Shown here: positions 7,872 through 18,970 of the stretch, piece after piece
Layout of the letters: each line of letters begins with the position of its first letter
Position numbering within the stretch: position 1 is the first letter of the stretch
Virus record (IMG/VR): IMGVR_UViG_3300033571_027799
Coordinates: 1 to 48,351 of that record
Strand: one strand, 5' to 3'
Length of the DNA stretch: 48,351 nt
Source of the DNA: a virus
The notes under the pieces: generated by a model
Databases searched by the model: none
Told to the model about the DNA's origin: nothing
What the model saw: only the letters and a program-made list of their open reading frames with translations
Position numbers and translations under genes: made by a program

Positions 7872-7899
7872 ATTATAAAGTTGCCGCGCCCACGGTCAA
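7872..7899 (-). promoter_or_regulatory. Near-consensus sigma70 promoter for ssb
   Basis: The minus strand reads TTGACC (7894-7899), a 16-nt spacer, then TATAAT (7872-7877). The -35 box overlaps the stop codon of the polymerase C-terminal gene. Transcription would start near 7865, leaving a leader of about 40 nt before the ssb ATG. The match to the host housekeeping consensus suggests early expression. Confidence 0.85.
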
Positions 7900-9518
7900 G
7901 TTGCTGGAACAAAACATTTTTCTACTACGAAGCTATCCTTGGACTTGCTACGACCACCAACAAATATCAGTATGTTGCCTTCAAACAGATGAGGCATATA
8001 CTTGGCGTAAGTTTCTGGAAAAAATATAACTGAATCCAACAGACCAAACTGATCTTCTATACTTAAAAAGGCCATATCTAATCCTGGATTTTTCCCATTT
8101 TTAGTTTTAGTAACATTAACATTAGATATTTCTCCGGCTATAATAATATTATGAGATAATGAAGATTGTTTAAATTCTTTACAATTGGTATTGGTCATAC
8201 CTATATCATAAGAATCTAATTTTGAACAAGAGATAGTCACCCCCAAAAGATTACTCTCACAGTCTGATAACCACTCTACTTTATCTAATAAAGAATAGGC
8301 CGGATGATCTATAGAAGAAATCATATCCGCGATAACAGATTTTCTATTTTTATTAATTTTAGCCACTAATAGCATTTGATCAAATATATCTCTAATTTTA
8401 GTATGTCCAGCATTAACAAGCTGTAGAAAATATTCTTGCTCTTTATTGGTTAAGCCAGCACATAATTCATATTCAAACAGCATCTCTGTTCTATTTTTCA
8501 GAAAATAATCAAATGCGCCACAAGAAATCAAAGCCTTACTAGCTGTAGAATTAATTTTTAACAAGATTTTGCCTATAGTCATAGGCCAATTAAGAGTGTT
8601 GACATCTTCTTCTTTGACAAGTTCCTTTATCTTAGAAAATACAGATTCTCCGACTCCCTTAATATCTGTTAGTCCAAAATATATGTTTTTATTTTTGATA
8701 GTAAAAAACTGATTTAGGTTTCTAAAATCTGGAATATGAATATTAATATCCATCTCGTTGGCATTTCTCACCAACTCTTTAATTTCTTGTTGAGGATCAA
8801 TTTTGTCTTTAGCAAATCTAAGGTATGATGCAAAAAATATTTTGGGGAAGTGTGCTTTAGCATAGGCCGATAAATAAGCATTAACGGCATAAGATACCCC
8901 GTGAGACTTATTAAAACTATATCTTTGACTTTTTTCGATCCAGCCGAATATTTCTTCAGCTTCTTTGTCTGTAACTATTTTAAGTTTTTTGGTGCCATCT
9001 AAGAATTTTTGCTTAATCTTAGCCATTTCTTCTGGTTTCTTTTTACCGATGGCTTTTCTTAGATAGTCTGCTTCTTGTAGATTAAAACCAGCTAATTCTT
9101 TGGCTATAGACATAGCTTGTTCTTGATATATCATTTCTCCATAGCTAGACTTTAATGAAGATTCTAGTGCGGGATGAAAGTAATCAACACTTTCTAATCC
9201 ATTCTTTTTATCGATAAAATGATTAGATACAGATTTACCTTCTCTAATAGCTTCTAGACATCCTGGTCTAAGAATACTTATAAGGCCCGATAATTGCTCA
9301 ATATTTTCTGGCTTCAATTTTTTAGACATCATCTGTCCCAGCCTTGATTCTAACTGGAAACACCCTTTGGTATTACCATCAGATATTAAGTCCCAAGTTC
9401 TGCGACATTCTAAATTAATATCTTCTATCTTGGCAGTAAATTCTATCTTTGGGAAATCAGACGATCTCTCAAGAATAGGGAATTTACATCCACAATCAAA
9501 TGCATAATACTCAGGCAT
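7896..9518 (-). CDS. dnaE: DNA polymerase III alpha subunit, C-terminal half (fingers, HhH, OB)
   Basis: This 540-residue protein is the second half of a split replicative polymerase. After an unusual 30-residue start with FDCGCKF (Cys 9 and 11), DnaE homology begins at IEDINLECRRTWDLI. GCFQLES (about 52-58) and ISILRPG (about 80) mark the fingers domain. RYSFNKSHGVSYAVNAYLSA is the conserved F-N-K-S-H motif. LTDIKGVGESVFSKI (about 285) is a helix-hairpin-helix, and an OB fold occupies roughly 440-530. The palm aspartates are in the other gene, so this protein must pair with the product of 10382-12267. Its ATG overlaps the end of the exonuclease gene by 8 nt. No clear C-terminal clamp-binding motif was seen. 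Confidence 0.92.
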   Translation of the reverse strand: MPEYYAFDCGCKFPILERSSDFPKIEFTAKIEDINLECRRTWDLISDGNTKGCFQLESRLGQMMSKKLKPENIEQLSGLISILRPGCLEAIREGKSVSNHFIDKKNGLESVDYFHPALESSLKSSYGEMIYQEQAMSIAKELAGFNLQEADYLRKAIGKKKPEEMAKIKQKFLDGTKKLKIVTDKEAEEIFGWIEKSQRYSFNKSHGVSYAVNAYLSAYAKAHFPKIFFASYLRFAKDKIDPQQEIKELVRNANEMDINIHIPDFRNLNQFFTIKNKNIYFGLTDIKGVGESVFSKIKELVKEEDVNTLNWPMTIGKILLKINSTASKALISCGAFDYFLKNRTEMLFEYELCAGLTNKEQEYFLQLVNAGHTKIRDIFDQMLLVAKINKNRKSVIADMISSIDHPAYSLLDKVEWLSDCESNLLGVTISCSKLDSYDIGMTNTNCKEFKQSSLSHNIIIAGEISNVNVTKTKNGKNPGLDMAFLSIEDQFGLLDSVIFFPETYAKYMPHLFEGNILIFVGGRSKSKDSFVVEKCFVPAT

Positions 9519-10206
9519 TTAAAAAAGATCCTTTGAATTTAACCTTTGATCCCAAACTTCTGTGTAATTTCATAAATCTAATCATTATTTGAGCCGTATC
9601 CTTAACATCCTTAAGGGCATCATGGGCGCCCTCTTTATCTATGCCTAAATAGTCTCGTAGATTATCTAATGTATAATTTTTAAGTTCGCGGTTACCCTCA
9701 AACCAATAAAAAATAACGTTCATTAAATCTATAACGTCTCTAGGATAAAATAGACTACTTCGCCCCTCCTTATTAAGATTTCCATATTTAACACTTAGTT
9801 TTTCAATAATTCTTAAGTCAAATCTATTAATATTATAGCCAGCAGCTATTGGGGCAGTAAAGTGTGATTTTTTATCTGATCTTATATGATACATTTCTAA
9901 ATAAGAAACAAACATTTTCCACCCAAGCTCTTGCTTCTGAAATGATTGCCAAGACGACAATATCTCTGTTTTGGCACAACCTCTAACTTTAGCATGAAAG
10001 TCTAAGACATCACTATCTTCATACTGATAGGACGGATTGGATTCCAGAGCTTCGGGCTTTAAGCTAATATTAAATTCTGAGTCTGGGATGATTTCAAGCC
10101 GAATAGGATCAACAATCATAGCAGCTATTTGAACCGGGCTGCAAATATCTGGATTAGCTCCATCAGTTTCTAAATCGAATACACAAATTTTTTGAGAATT
10201 AGCCAT
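9511..10206 (-). CDS. DEDDh 3'-5' exonuclease (DnaQ/epsilon-like proofreading subunit)
   Basis: The 231-residue product has all three exonuclease motifs: ExoI at FDLETDG (D11, E13), ExoII at NINRFDLRIIEK, and ExoIII at GAHDALKDVKDTAQI, with the histidine characteristic of the DEDDh subclass. It lacks a polymerase domain. It lies between the two halves of the DnaE-like polymerase, overlapping the C-terminal half by 8 nt and the 59-residue gene by 8 nt. A role as the proofreading partner of that polymerase is therefore the natural reading. TREX-type repair nucleases share these motifs, so the exact partner is inferred from position. Confidence 0.9.
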   Translation of the reverse strand: MANSQKICVFDLETDGANPDICSPVQIAAMIVDPIRLEIIPDSEFNISLKPEALESNPSYQYEDSDVLDFHAKVRGCAKTEILSSWQSFQKQELGWKMFVSYLEMYHIRSDKKSHFTAPIAAGYNINRFDLRIIEKLSVKYGNLNKEGRSSLFYPRDVIDLMNVIFYWFEGNRELKNYTLDNLRDYLGIDKEGAHDALKDVKDTAQIMIRFMKLHRSLGSKVKFKGSFLNA

Positions 10207-10381: not shown

Positions 10382-12267
10382 TTAAACTCCGTGTTTTAAT
10401 ATGTCTGAAATGGTCATAACCTTATCCAACATAGCAACCCCTAAAATATCAAATTTGATAATACCCAAATTTTCTAAGTCTTGCATCTCCATGCCTGCGA
10501 TAGTTTGTTTGTTCTTATTGTCGTAGATCATCGGACACACAGACTTCAGATCTTGACTACTAATAACTACACCAGCAGCATGTTTGGATTGATTAGATTT
10601 AGTTCCTTCTAGTCTGATAGCCTGTTCAAATCTTTTTGCTAGTGGTCCGGCGAGAGAACCATCACTATCAATATAGCACCATTCTTTGAGTTTGTCAACC
10701 TGATTTTCTAAAGCCCACCTAATGATAGAAGCTTCTCCGGTATCTTCCTTCATTTCCTGTAGTTCGTCAGCAATCTTTGCTTCATCTGGTATGTGTTTAG
10801 TTATCCTATTCATTTCCTCAAATGAAATATTATCATATACTCTTAGTACCTCTTTCAAGGCACCTCTTCCCTTTAGGGTATTATATGTTATCATTTGAGA
10901 AACCTTATCTCGTCCATATTTGGATTTAATATATTCTATTATAGACTCTCTCTTATTAATTGGAACATCCACATCTATATCTGGCATAGAGATTCTATCT
11001 TTAGTATTTCTGCCAGAATTATAAAATCTTTCAAAAATTAAATCATACTTGATAGGATCAATAGAAGTAATGCCAATTAAATACGACACCAAACAACCAG
11101 ACGCTGAACCTCTGCCCGGACCAGGAAGCCATCCATTATTTCTTACATAGTTCACTATATCTTGTACAATCAAGAAATAGCTTGATAATCCAGCGCCTTG
11201 TAATACTTCTAGTTCTCTTTTAATACGATCAATATATACTTGTTGATCATCCTTAGCTATAGTATTGGCTATCTTGTCTTTCCAGCCTTCTCTACATAAT
11301 TGTCTAAGGTATTCATCGGGATTTAAATTATTTGGACAATCAAATACTGGTAGCATAGGCTTATGCAAGATATCAAAAGATTCTATTAGAGAATCGACAT
11401 AATTGGTATTATCTATCTCTTCTTCAGTATGTAAAGCAAGCATTTCTTCTGGAGATAAAATATAATAATTATCAGATTTGAAAAAACATCCCATAGGAAT
11501 ATCTTCATTGTTTAATAATTTTTTATTGATATCTACTAAAGTCATCTTTAGATTATTGCATAACAAGATCCTTTGATCTATTGCGTCGGATTTATCTGCG
11601 TAGTGCGCATCGGGTGTGCAAATAACTTTAGTTTTAGAAATATTACCTAATTCCCTAATAATATTTGTTAGCTCTATTTGTTCTGGTAAATGTTCTTGAT
11701 CCATAAGTTGAGATTCCAAAAAGAAATTTTCTGCCCCGAACATCTCCTTCATTCTGGATATAAATGACAGACCGTTTTTAATGGCCTCTGGCTTATCTCT
11801 AAGTATCAAATTTGCTAAAGATGATCCTAAATGACCACAAAAGCCAATAAGATTACCATCTAAAAATTCTGCTAATTTATCAAAACTTAATCTGGGCTTA
11901 TGATAAAAATTGGTTTCTGTATTAGATTCTGAAATGATTCTAATTAAGGTTTTCCATCCTTGTAAGTTTTTTGCTAGCACTATAAAGTGGCTAAGAGAAT
12001 TATTCTCCTTATTTTTTATTGACGAATCTTGTTCGGATATATATAATTCACATCCTAGAATCGGTTTTATCCCAACCTTTTTCATTGATTCATAAAATTG
12101 TACTGAACCAGATATTGTTCCGTGATCAGTCAAAGCACAAGACTTTATGCCAAGTTTAGAACATCTATCAGCAATCTGATTAGGCTTACTTAGTCCATCC
12201 AAAAGCGAGTAATGAGACTCACTTAAGAATGGACGTGTAGAGGCACATACCTCTGAGTCACGTCCAT
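10382..12267 (-). CDS. dnaE: DNA polymerase III alpha subunit, N-terminal half (PHP + palm), interrupted near its 5' end by an 11-nt out-of-frame insert
   Basis: This is the catalytic half of the split polymerase. The ATG at 12267 (AGGA 9 nt upstream) encodes MDVTQRYVPLHVHS, the standard DnaE opening with the PHP H-x-H metal motif, then TAA at 12223-12225. Eleven nt further on the frame that continues to 10382 reads HYSLLDGLSKP, the exact family continuation. That frame has no ATG or GTG upstream; its first possible start is TTG at 12202 without a ribosome-binding site. Downstream are TDHG, LPGPGRGSASG (near residue 360 from the TTG), the palm aspartates in MPDIDVDV (about 405) and the third in IIKFDILG (about 582). 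The protein ends just before the fingers domain. Translational bypass is suspected; a disrupting mutation is the alternative. Confidence 0.9.
12215..12228 (-). promoter_or_regulatory. Candidate translational bypass site in dnaE (TCT-TAA ... TCT)
   Basis: The upstream frame reads CAT TCT and then TAA. The downstream frame resumes at CAT TAC just after a second TCT (12215-12217). Removing the 11 nt TAAGTGAGTCT restores LHVHS-HYSLLDG with no residue lost or gained. Identical take-off and landing codons and a stop directly after take-off are features of the T4 gene 60 bypass. A -1 shift would instead insert four residues (LSES). Confidence 0.55.
12229..12267 (-). promoter_or_regulatory. Hairpin covering the dnaE start codon and ending at the bypass site
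   Basis: The mRNA segment folds as ATGGACGTG (including the start codon) pairing with CACGTCCAT, an internal loop (ACTC opposite A), AGAGG pairing with CCTCT, and a TATGTG loop. The 3' arm encodes His-Val-His and ends directly before the take-off TCT. It could hide the start codon or, when it re-forms behind the ribosome, help forward movement as the 5' stem-loop of T4 gene 60 does. Confidence 0.7.
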
Positions 12268-12299
12268 CTTTATTGTTCCTTTTTGTTATGAGAAAATAT

Positions 12300-13343
12300 T
12301 TACTCTATACTACCAGGGGCCTTATATTTACCAAATGTATGATTAGGATGTTTATATAAATCCACTACTGTATTAATACCATATAATTCTATATCATGTT
12401 TTACTTGTTCGCACTTTGTCATATAAGAGCCATTAGAGCATACTTGATTATCTCTATATTCTTTAGATGGCAGAATAGATGTATTTTCAAATGTACTTTT
12501 ACCAAAATGACATAATTTACTGCACATCCAGGTTCTATTTAATTTGGGTCGCTTGTTTTGCTTAATATGTTCAAATTTTTGTCTAATCATATTTTCTGTT
12601 TTTTCTATATCAGAATCATCAAAACATATAGAGAATGGACCACCATCATTAATAAAATATATTGAAAAGATAATATGTTTTATATGAGGGAATAAATTTT
12701 TAATAGCATAGAAATATATTCTAAGTTGCGGATCATTTTCTAATTTTTCTTGAGTTTTTTCCTGTCCGGTAGCCCAGTCTATCCTACGACCAGTTTTCCA
12801 ATCCACCACTTCAATTGTATTGTCGTCTACCAGCGTGATTAAGTCAATAGTGCCTTTTAAAGCTAATTTTCCCTCAATCTTACCATCGCTAGTATCAAAA
12901 GAATAATTAGCCCAAGGCTTATGGATTTCAAAATCAAAATGTTGTTCTGGACACAATATGTTTCTATTTCTAGGATCAAACATACCTCCATTAAACTCTA
13001 TGGCCTTATAAACCCAAGCATGACAATCTTTATAGTCTTTTGGCATCCATTTATGGTGCGTATTCATTTCTGAATAGTATTTGTATACTTTTTCTATAAT
13101 GGTATTCAGACTATACGATGAGCAGTTTACTATTCCTATTACATCATCATTAATTTCTAGCAGATTATCTTGCTGTGCTTTTTTGATTACTGCTAGAATT
13201 TCTAAAACTTTATGAACAATAGTGCCTTTATCGGCCTTTTGTCCTGATGGGCCTCGCCAGCCTAATACGTATTCAAAAAAATATTGTTGCTCACACATAC
13301 TATGAGCATTATAAGAAGAGCTTCTAAAGTAGGTTATTATCAT
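12300..13343 (-). CDS. Cas4/RecB-like PD-(D/E)XK exonuclease with probable Fe-S cluster
   Basis: The 347-residue nuclease has the RecB-family core: GTIVHKVLE (H44), LKGTIDLITL (metal-binding D) and IEVVDWKTGR (D-x-K), then QLRIYFYAI (motif QxxxY-like). Cysteines at 17 (SMCEQQYFFEY) and in the C-terminal part (WMCSKLCHFGK, then QVCSNGSYMTKC) are placed like the four cysteines of Cas4 and AddB iron-sulfur domains. It lies directly upstream of the polymerase in the replication block, with 32 nt between its stop and the dnaE ATG. A role in recombination or end-processing with the RecA-like protein is likely. No CRISPR array or other cas gene is present. Confidence 0.85.
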   Translation of the reverse strand: MIITYFRSSSYNAHSMCEQQYFFEYVLGWRGPSGQKADKGTIVHKVLEILAVIKKAQQDNLLEINDDVIGIVNCSSYSLNTIIEKVYKYYSEMNTHHKWMPKDYKDCHAWVYKAIEFNGGMFDPRNRNILCPEQHFDFEIHKPWANYSFDTSDGKIEGKLALKGTIDLITLVDDNTIEVVDWKTGRRIDWATGQEKTQEKLENDPQLRIYFYAIKNLFPHIKHIIFSIYFINDGGPFSICFDDSDIEKTENMIRQKFEHIKQNKRPKLNRTWMCSKLCHFGKSTFENTSILPSKEYRDNQVCSNGSYMTKCEQVKHDIELYGINTVVDLYKHPNHTFGKYKAPGSIE

Positions 13344-17554: not shown

Positions 17555-17954
17555 TATTCAATCTCCCCTGCCATTGCTCTAATGCTTCATTATAAGGGAA
17601 TACTATCTGTCTTATATTATTAATCTCACACCACTCTGTCTTTTCTCTATCTCTTTTTTGAGATTTTAAGAATCCTAATTGGGTATTGTGGTAAAAACCA
17701 ACAAATTTATAATGCTGTTCGCCATGAACTTCTATACAGGTTTTTATTAAGGGCAAATAAAAATCTAAATATAAGGTCTCAGATTTTCTTAATTGTATAG
17801 GAACTTCTTCTAAGATTTGAAGAGTAGGGAAATGATTAGTTATCAGATCCCTAGCCTTGATATGAAATGTAGACTTGTGATCTATTTTACCCTTGGCCAT
17901 ATGTCCTGTCAAGTGCCAAGAATGAGAATTTCCGTCCAAATCCCTAATAATCAT
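17547..17954 (-). CDS. Small Vsr/DUF559-like PD-(D/E)XK nuclease
   Basis: This 135-residue protein has the nuclease core LYLDFYLPLIKTCIEVHGEQ: D in the first strand, E-V-H-G in the second, then QHYKFVGFYH. It continues with DREKTEWCEINNIRQIVFPY, the usual helix and strand of the Vsr/DUF559 fold. Unlike the larger relative at 42-848 it has no NUMOD or HTH part. It overlaps the RecA-like gene by 4 nt and the helical unknown by 8 nt, so it is a fixed member of the replication operon rather than an obvious mobile insert. A repair or recombination nuclease is likely; the substrate is unknown. Confidence 0.75.
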   Translation of the reverse strand: MIIRDLDGNSHSWHLTGHMAKGKIDHKSTFHIKARDLITNHFPTLQILEEVPIQLRKSETLYLDFYLPLIKTCIEVHGEQHYKFVGFYHNTQLGFLKSQKRDREKTEWCEINNIRQIVFPYNEALEQWQGRLNNG

Positions 17955-18970
17955 TTGATACCCATTGTCTCTTTAACAGATTTCCATAGTTCATCGTATA
18001 CTTTGGGATTCTCTAGGAGATAGCTTCTAACCTTTTCAGTTCCTTGAAATTTTGGCTTATCTGCTACTCCTATAAGAGTATACCAAGCACCACCTTTTTG
18101 TATTAAGCCAATATCTGAAGCTAAATTAATTAACTCCATATTTTTATCTACTCCTTGACCATATCTTAAATAGCTGGTAATAGTAGCTCCAGGAGCACCC
18201 AAAGCAGAACATAATACTTGCCATTCAACTTCTTGTCCTATTTGTGTACTATCGGCACTTAAAACCCAAGGCTTGAAAGTTTTTGCTCTGAGCTTAACGT
18301 CAGTTTGATAAGCAATAGCCTGCCCAGACTTCTCCTTAAATTCTGCACCATATCCAGTAGGATTACCCATTAAGTGAGTAATACCTATGACTATATTTTT
18401 ATTGACAGGTATAACATTTGCTACTTTTCTACAAAATTTAGCCAATAACTTAGCCCCATCTGCTCTCTGCATCTTATCCATATCTGATGTTATTTCTGCT
18501 TCAGTACATAATGCAGAATATGAGTCGATGATCATTACGGATCCGGGAATTTCATTTATAATTCTTTCTGCTATTTGTAGATATTCTTCAGCATGTAGTA
18601 TTTTGCCCTGCTGAGAACCTATGACATGAAATTTATCAAGATTTAATCCTGGAATACCTTCTAAATCTCTTTTTTTCAATCTACCTTCTATGTTTAGATA
18701 ATACACTTCTCTGCCGTCTTTGAATGATCCATATGCGTATTCTAATTTTTGAGCTGTTGCACAGAAGTCTAGCGAGGTTGTAGTTTTACCGCATTTGGGC
18801 TGTCCCGTTAATACAACAAAGCTACCTTCTGGGATACCACCATTTAAAATAATGTCTAGAGATGGACTTACAGGAATAGTTAATACCTTTTTATCTACTA
18901 TAGCATTACCACTCAGAATAATATTATCACCAAAATTTTTTGTCACATCTTCTTTAAGTGCCATTATCAA
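17951..18970 (-). CDS. RecA/UvsX-like recombinase
   Basis: The 339-residue recombinase has Walker A GQPKCGKTTT (56-65), preceded by LDIILNGGIPEGSFVVLT, which is typical of RecA/UvsX. Walker B is SVMIIDSYSALC; IVIGITHLMGNPTGYG follows (L1/L2 side); and the C-terminal part has QEVEWQVLCSALGAPG. It forms filaments on ssDNA for recombination-dependent replication and repair. It overlaps the next gene upstream by 17 nt. Two ATGs (18970 and 18964) are possible starts, differing by two residues. It heads a unit with the Vsr-like nuclease, and the SSB and Cas4-like nuclease elsewhere in the block are likely partners. Confidence 0.92.
   Translation of the reverse strand: MIMALKEDVTKNFGDNIILSGNAIVDKKVLTIPVSPSLDIILNGGIPEGSFVVLTGQPKCGKTTTSLDFCATAQKLEYAYGSFKDGREVYYLNIEGRLKKRDLEGIPGLNLDKFHVIGSQQGKILHAEEYLQIAERIINEIPGSVMIIDSYSALCTEAEITSDMDKMQRADGAKLLAKFCRKVANVIPVNKNIVIGITHLMGNPTGYGAEFKEKSGQAIAYQTDVKLRAKTFKPWVLSADSTQIGQEVEWQVLCSALGAPGATITSYLRYGQGVDKNMELINLASDIGLIQKGGAWYTLIGVADKPKFQGTEKVRSYLLENPKVYDELWKSVKETMGIK

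Follow-up and report, generated by a model that had tools for sequence, protein, structure and literature searches.

A recurrent short interruption in phage dnaE genes, with conserved RNA stems and a linked HNH gene, as a likely translational-bypass element

Gene 60 of phage T4 has long been the single natural example of efficient, structured translational bypass. There, a stop codon occupies the A site, a stem-loop at that site and another on the 5′ side act on the stalled ribosome, and the peptidyl-tRNA re-pairs downstream (PMC5009743, PMC11194080), and the HNH gene mobA lies upstream of gene 60 (PMC3014915). Other described systems resemble in part the locus reported here, an interrupted DNA polymerase III alpha gene (dnaE). 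In the mitochondria of Magnusiomyces capitatus, as in this locus, short non-coding inserts in protein genes are skipped and imperfect codon matches are tolerated, but 81 sites, reported as largely independent of mRNA context, occur in that one genome (PMC5009743), compared with one structured site per genome in many phages. Synthetic stop-hops in Escherichia coli (PMC5009743) likewise cross a stop by a short hop from one matched codon to the other; they are artificial, whereas the dnaE element is natural, structured and conserved. The bypass proposed for the terminase of Streptomyces phage Hau3 also falls in an essential phage gene, but it is tied to host decoding of UUA, and no stop-hairpin element of the dnaE type is described in the relevant passage (PMC5009743). 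In the open-access literature that we searched, no such element is described; subscription papers and preprints were mostly outside this coverage. We conclude that the dnaE interruption is likely to be a programmed translational-bypass element carried in a mobile cassette, with the bypass itself inferred from sequence alone, without protein data.

The element was recognized in a 48,351-nt viral sequence (IMG/VR record IMGVR_UViG_3300033571_027799; hereafter, the window), where it lies on the minus strand. A Shine–Dalgarno-like AAGGAA, seen in the sequence (12276..12281), precedes an ATG (12267-12265) that opens a first coding segment of 14 codons, MDVTQRYVPLHVHS (12226..12267), supported by frame-specific pN/pS. 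This segment ends at the proposed take-off codon, TCT (12228-12226), directly followed by a TAA stop (12225-12223). Skipping 11 nt, TAAGTGAGTCT (12225-12215), whose last three nucleotides are the landing triplet TCT (12217-12215), leads to the CAT (His) codon at 12214, the first after landing, and to a second coding segment, HYSLLDGLSKP... (10382..12214), the N part of DnaE, identified by pN/pS and by Pfam matches to the PHP and polymerase (DNA_pol3_alpha) domains. Near its beginning, the downstream frame has no ATG or GTG start in the window; its listed start is TTG 12202, ahead of which a strong ribosome-binding site is also absent. The initial annotation had described this arrangement: an ATG-initiated peptide running into TAA, an 11-nt skip that restores the DnaE N terminus, and a downstream frame without ATG, GTG or a ribosome-binding site. 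All of its coordinates were correct and these claims held, the last of them near the beginning of the frame. The other gap loci listed have purine-rich sites of the AAGGA or AGGAG type 5′ of the AUG. Upstream of dnaE in the window is a PD-(D/E)XK nuclease gene (12300..13343, minus strand). As a separate observation, the DnaE of the window is split: an N part (PHP and the start of the polymerase) and a C part (fingers, HHH) are encoded by separate ORFs that flank an exonuclease gene (ORFs at 7896-9518, 9511-10206 and 10382-12214). A GMP reductase-like phage protein (46399-47535) and a RecA-like recombinase ORF (17951-18970), the latter overlapping the end of its upstream gene, have TTG starts; at TTG- or GTG-start ORFs elsewhere in the window, no similar element was seen.

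A single contig alone could not exclude an assembly or sequencing error, and the initial annotation had named an assembly artefact, or a natural nonsense or frameshift mutant, as its alternative. A first protein search returned 80 relative loci, 14 of them interrupted at the same codon; with pattern scans and two further searches, this grew to 48 distinct versions. A scan for the 5′ half alone added a 49th (L290), and two other hits from that scan, L291 and L293, were rejected as chance matches. All 49 are distinct at the DNA level and come from independent IMG/VR contigs. They share the interruption at the identical position of the DnaE N terminus, in the order AUG, a peptide of 13–15 residues ending in LH(V/C)HS, a stop with the rest of the gap, and HYSLLDG or something close to it. 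The motif is uninterrupted in at least 115 other relatives; intact homologues read LHVHSHYSLLDG in a single frame, and none was seen to start at the position of TTG 12202. Because 48 other versions share the conserved structure, an assembly error, a sequencing error or a dead gene is all but ruled out: the 49 versions come from independent metagenomes, the downstream ORF is intact and the stems carry compensatory changes. Exact copies with CAC preceding take-off were absent from IMG/VR, the main pattern had no match in bacterial or archaeal genome contigs, and a covariance model gave no convincing second copy per genome (17 records). A cultured carrier was not found, the nearest isolate phage polymerases being only about 33% identical.

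The take-off codon is TCT in 30 and TCC in 18 of the 48 tabulated versions, and a stop follows it in every one (TAA 26, TAG 20, TGA 2). Counted with the stop codon, that is, as the stop plus 5–9 further nucleotides, the gaps measure 8 nt (3 versions), 9 nt (11), 10 nt (15), 11 nt (17) or 12 nt (2). Landing triplets are TCT (17), TCA (12), ACT (10), GCT (6), TCC (2) and GCC (1); they are always NCN, with an invariant middle C and at least two of three bases able to pair. The identity of take-off and landing codons noted in the initial annotation holds for the window (TCT/TCT) and for 13 of the 48 versions, but not for the whole family, in which the remaining versions have a two-of-three or wobble match. 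UCY occupies the take-off position in 48/48 gap versions compared with 38/100 intact versions, and the codon two before take-off is GTC in 47/48 compared with 3/100. The scan patterns demanded a stop-like codon (TRR); the protein-based searches did not, and these too returned no gapped version lacking a stop.

These distributions bear on programmed frameshifting or stop readthrough, which we consider very unlikely. A −1 shift at TCT-TAA does stay open in the 11-nt copies (with an LSES insert), and readthrough is in frame in the 9- and 12-nt copies. However, the gap lengths cover all three frames, so no fixed frameshift fits the gap versions and readthrough could serve only those of 9 and 12 nt; a programmed −1 or +1 frameshift with one fixed shift was rejected, the gaps being 8–12 nt long. 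Moreover, the shift needed differs (8, 9, 10, 11 or 12 nt) under one shared structure, the extra residues would interrupt the PHP motif, and no slippery heptamer is apparent.

Both sides of the gap are under codon-level, purifying selection as one DnaE N terminus, and this holds for the proposed frames only. A Nei–Gojobori-type estimate over the gap versions gave, for the proposed frame, a pN/pS of 0.27 over the nine codons that precede take-off, compared with 2.0 and 3.1 for the two alternative frames; of 0.31 over the 13 codons that follow landing, compared with 1.2 and 2.8; and of 0.21 for HYSLL by itself, compared with 2.8 and 2.1. Intact relatives encode exactly the joined peptide, with HYSLL or HFSLL, or MYSLL or MFSLL; the same alternatives occur among the gap versions, some of which repeat the SMYSLL or SMFSLL of intact polymerases. 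A criterion for bypass, that one protein be encoded in two segments split by a non-coding gap, is thus met by selection and by the intact homologues.

The gap lies within a hairpin that is conserved, covaries and has the landing site in its loop. In the gap versions, this hairpin B (12203..12224, minus strand, as are the stems below), supported by fold energy, covariation and an arm-swap test, begins at the stop codon; in the window, it comprises a 5′ arm, AAGTGAGT (12224-12217), a loop, CTCATT (12216-12211), that holds the landing point, and a 3′ arm, ACTCGCTT (12210-12203). It folds in the window with −8.2 kcal/mol (z −5.1), and a 42-nt hairpin with −21.8 kcal/mol (z −6.9). A second stem, A (12229..12267), supported by covariation, joins the start-codon region, ATGGACGTG (12267-12259), to the bases just 5′ of take-off, CACGTCCAT (12237-12229); in L084, its arms read ATGGCAG/CTGCCAT. 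An alternative stem, C (12193..12234), extends the hairpin by pairing GTCCATTC (12234-12227) with GGATGGAC (12200-12193); it encloses hairpin B and is mutually exclusive with stem A. Stem C, as GUCCAUUC with GGAUGGAC, is the RNAalifold consensus of a plain MAFFT alignment and also the fold of lowest energy for the window element. Hairpin B meets the bypass criterion of a take-off stem-loop that includes the stop, and stem A that of a 5′ stem-loop upstream of take-off.

Covariation was scored in an alignment of 40 versions that was fitted to the structure and hence biased towards it. There, 98.3% of cells pair overall, with changes on both sides in 8 of 17 pairs and 43 cells; 5 of the 8 pairs of hairpin B changed on both sides, and stem A has 98.1% of its cells paired and three pairs with changes on both sides. 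The observed covariation was reached in 0/500 shuffles, and sliding the partners by 1–3 columns lowered pairing to 32–52%. The arm-swap permutation test does not depend on this alignment: each gap's own downstream arm pairs better than swapped arms (0/20000 permutations). The 77-nt window element lies far above chance expectation, scoring 98 bits (E 8.5e-21) against a covariance model, which was built from an alignment that included it. In addition, the codons GTC, CAT, GAT and YTG hardly vary among gap versions, whereas intact versions differ at these positions, a contrast that stem C explains; among these codons is the TTG that had been flagged as a possible start.

Two rivals must be weighed against these structures. 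In the first, the 14-codon ORF would be a leader peptide that regulates a shorter polymerase initiated internally at the TTG or CTG (12202). Such a codon occurs in every tabulated gap version (48/48), and the AUG can be masked within stem A. However, the leader is the DnaE N terminus under purifying selection, and internal initiation would leave HYSLL untranslated although it, too, is under purifying selection; the invariant G is already accounted for by stem C, three versions have CTG instead of TTG, no strong ribosome-binding site lies ahead of the TTG in the window, and the product would lose the metal-ligand motif I of PHP. We therefore regard this reading as very unlikely. The second, RNA excision, holds that a nuclease and a ligase cut the 8–12-nt hairpin segment from the mRNA before translation. 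This reading accounts equally well for the varying length of the gap, for the conservation of the hairpins and for the restored protein, but excision needs no stop, and one of three types is present in every version; UCY-only take-off and NCN-only landing indicate a tRNA instead. One cut would have to fall at the foot of a hairpin and the other in its loop, and to our knowledge no enzyme cuts a hairpin in this way. No Rfam family matches at the site, and this explanation is also very unlikely. A self-splicing intron was rejected as a candidate given the 8–12-nt insert and the same lack of an Rfam match.

Interrupted versions are dispersed over the DnaE tree, and the interruption is linked to a neighbouring HNH gene; it is a recurrent family rather than a one-off. 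The tree requires 21 trait changes, at least 11 of them forced by well supported branches, and gap versions as a single clade are rejected (p-AU 8.8e-50, 64-row subset). In the pairs L005/L113 and L210/L259, the 59 nt before the gap are 98% identical, in polymerases that are 67–68% identical, and the similarity between such phages drops on the downstream side of the element; part of this high identity could possibly stem from RNA constraint, not transfer. L057 and L058 lack the gap and fall on the tree with L047 and L060, which have it. Both gapless genes encode precisely the joined sequence, HVHS-HFSLL, and resemble natural, exact losses of the element, the direction being inferred.

Directly upstream of dnaE in seven gap loci is a gene for a protein of about 240 residues, whose 3′ end overlaps or abuts the dnaE AUG and in most includes the 5′ arm of stem A; three more gap loci have a truncated copy. 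A full or truncated copy is adjacent in 10/48 gap versions compared with 0/100 intact versions (p 6e-6), with the caveat that the counts include related phages and are not fully independent. L290 has an eighth full copy beside its bypass. PHROG profiles identify the protein as an HNH-type endonuclease; Pfam gives only a weak helix-turn-helix match and its AlphaFold model is poor (pLDDT 59). A tblastn comparison with T4 mobA found only a CAITGL motif in common, so common descent is not shown. Beyond dnaE, a search for the gene gave a single distant homologue, L278; it adjoins a nucleotide-sugar gene, and no bypass was seen there. The gene is absent between the PD-(D/E)XK gene and dnaE in the window, although present there in other gap loci; the window lost it or never had one.

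Several neighbouring genes were noted in passing. A related HNH gene (37% identity) follows the DnaE N part in L047, at +1866 to +2525 after landing and near the DnaE split junction. L003, L005 and L022 carry distant HNH homologues or remnants (29–32% identity) about 1.1–1.7 kb upstream of landing, one of which belongs to an intact locus. In L084, the most divergent bypass element, the gene directly upstream of dnaE encodes a DNA methylase rather than an HNH protein. The dnaE of L290, the phage with both a bypass and a full HNH gene, has after GPGRG an intein-like insert (CFVPETNIKMSDG...GVHN) in the polymerase motif GPGRG|SAAG, with an internal stop.

The dnaE element has the ordered parts of T4 gene 60 in smaller form. 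Each lies in a phage gene, in which a stop directly follows the take-off codon and is contained in a stem-loop there; each also has a further stem-loop on the 5′ side and, upstream, a gene for an HNH endonuclease. This pairing of an HNH gene with an adjacent bypass, the mobA/gene 60 type of cassette, occurs in the family but not in the window. By contrast, gene 60 encodes a topoisomerase and dnaE polymerase III alpha; the gap of 50 nt in T4 is about five times longer than the 8–12 nt here; Gly codons are replaced by Ser codons with relaxed landing; landing occurs inside the hairpin loop, unlike in T4; the leader peptide has 13–15 residues instead of 46; and the dnaE element has dozens of natural versions.

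We propose that the ribosome would stall with UCU or UCC in the P site and the stop in the A site, where hairpin B would form and block release. The peptidyl-tRNA-Ser would then detach, and the upstream stem may refold behind the ribosome and help the mRNA to slide by 8–12 nt, the role proposed for the 5′ stem-loop of T4 (PMC5009743, PMC11194080). Because stems A and C compete, C may fold in front of the ribosome and A in its wake. Re-pairing at the NCN triplet in the loop would let translation resume at His or Met, with uninterrupted PLHVHS-HYSLLDG, the PHP motif I, as the predicted product; it would span the junction as ...PLHVHSHYSLLDG... without an extra residue. UCY-only take-off suggests, by inference, a Ser tRNA that reads UCU and UCC. 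Landing inside the loop implies that hairpin B must open when the ribosome resumes, unlike in T4. The nascent peptide is conserved, but it is the DnaE N terminus and, at only 13–15 residues, is unlikely to carry a T4-like exit-tunnel signal. As for mobility, the HNH enzyme is predicted to cut uninterrupted dnaE alleles, the element destroying the target, although no assay data support cleavage; homing would copy endonuclease and element together, and the endonuclease may later decay while the bypass remains, as in the window.

Against bypass, no protein, ribosome-profiling or reporter data support the ribosome steps, all of which are inferred, and landing codons often differ from take-off, ACT and GCT giving two of three pairs. 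The bypass put forward in the initial annotation is nevertheless strongly supported by comparison, in the absence of peptide or reporter evidence. A bolder reading, which taken as a whole we regard as more likely than not, is that this is an independently evolved second family of natural structured bypass, with a mechanism unlike that of T4, spread repeatedly by a dedicated HNH homing endonuclease. It would combine a short hop into the loop of the take-off hairpin, two-of-three pairing and an HNH gene that supplies, with its 3′ end, one arm of the bypass RNA.

With this compact element carried by dozens of environmental bacteriophages, a phage polymerase gene may appear defective when annotated and still be functional. 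A homing endonuclease coupled to a bypassed insert would be seen to recur in an unrelated essential gene, and dozens of natural copies of a smaller element would make the minimal requirements of bypass readable from evolution and directly testable.
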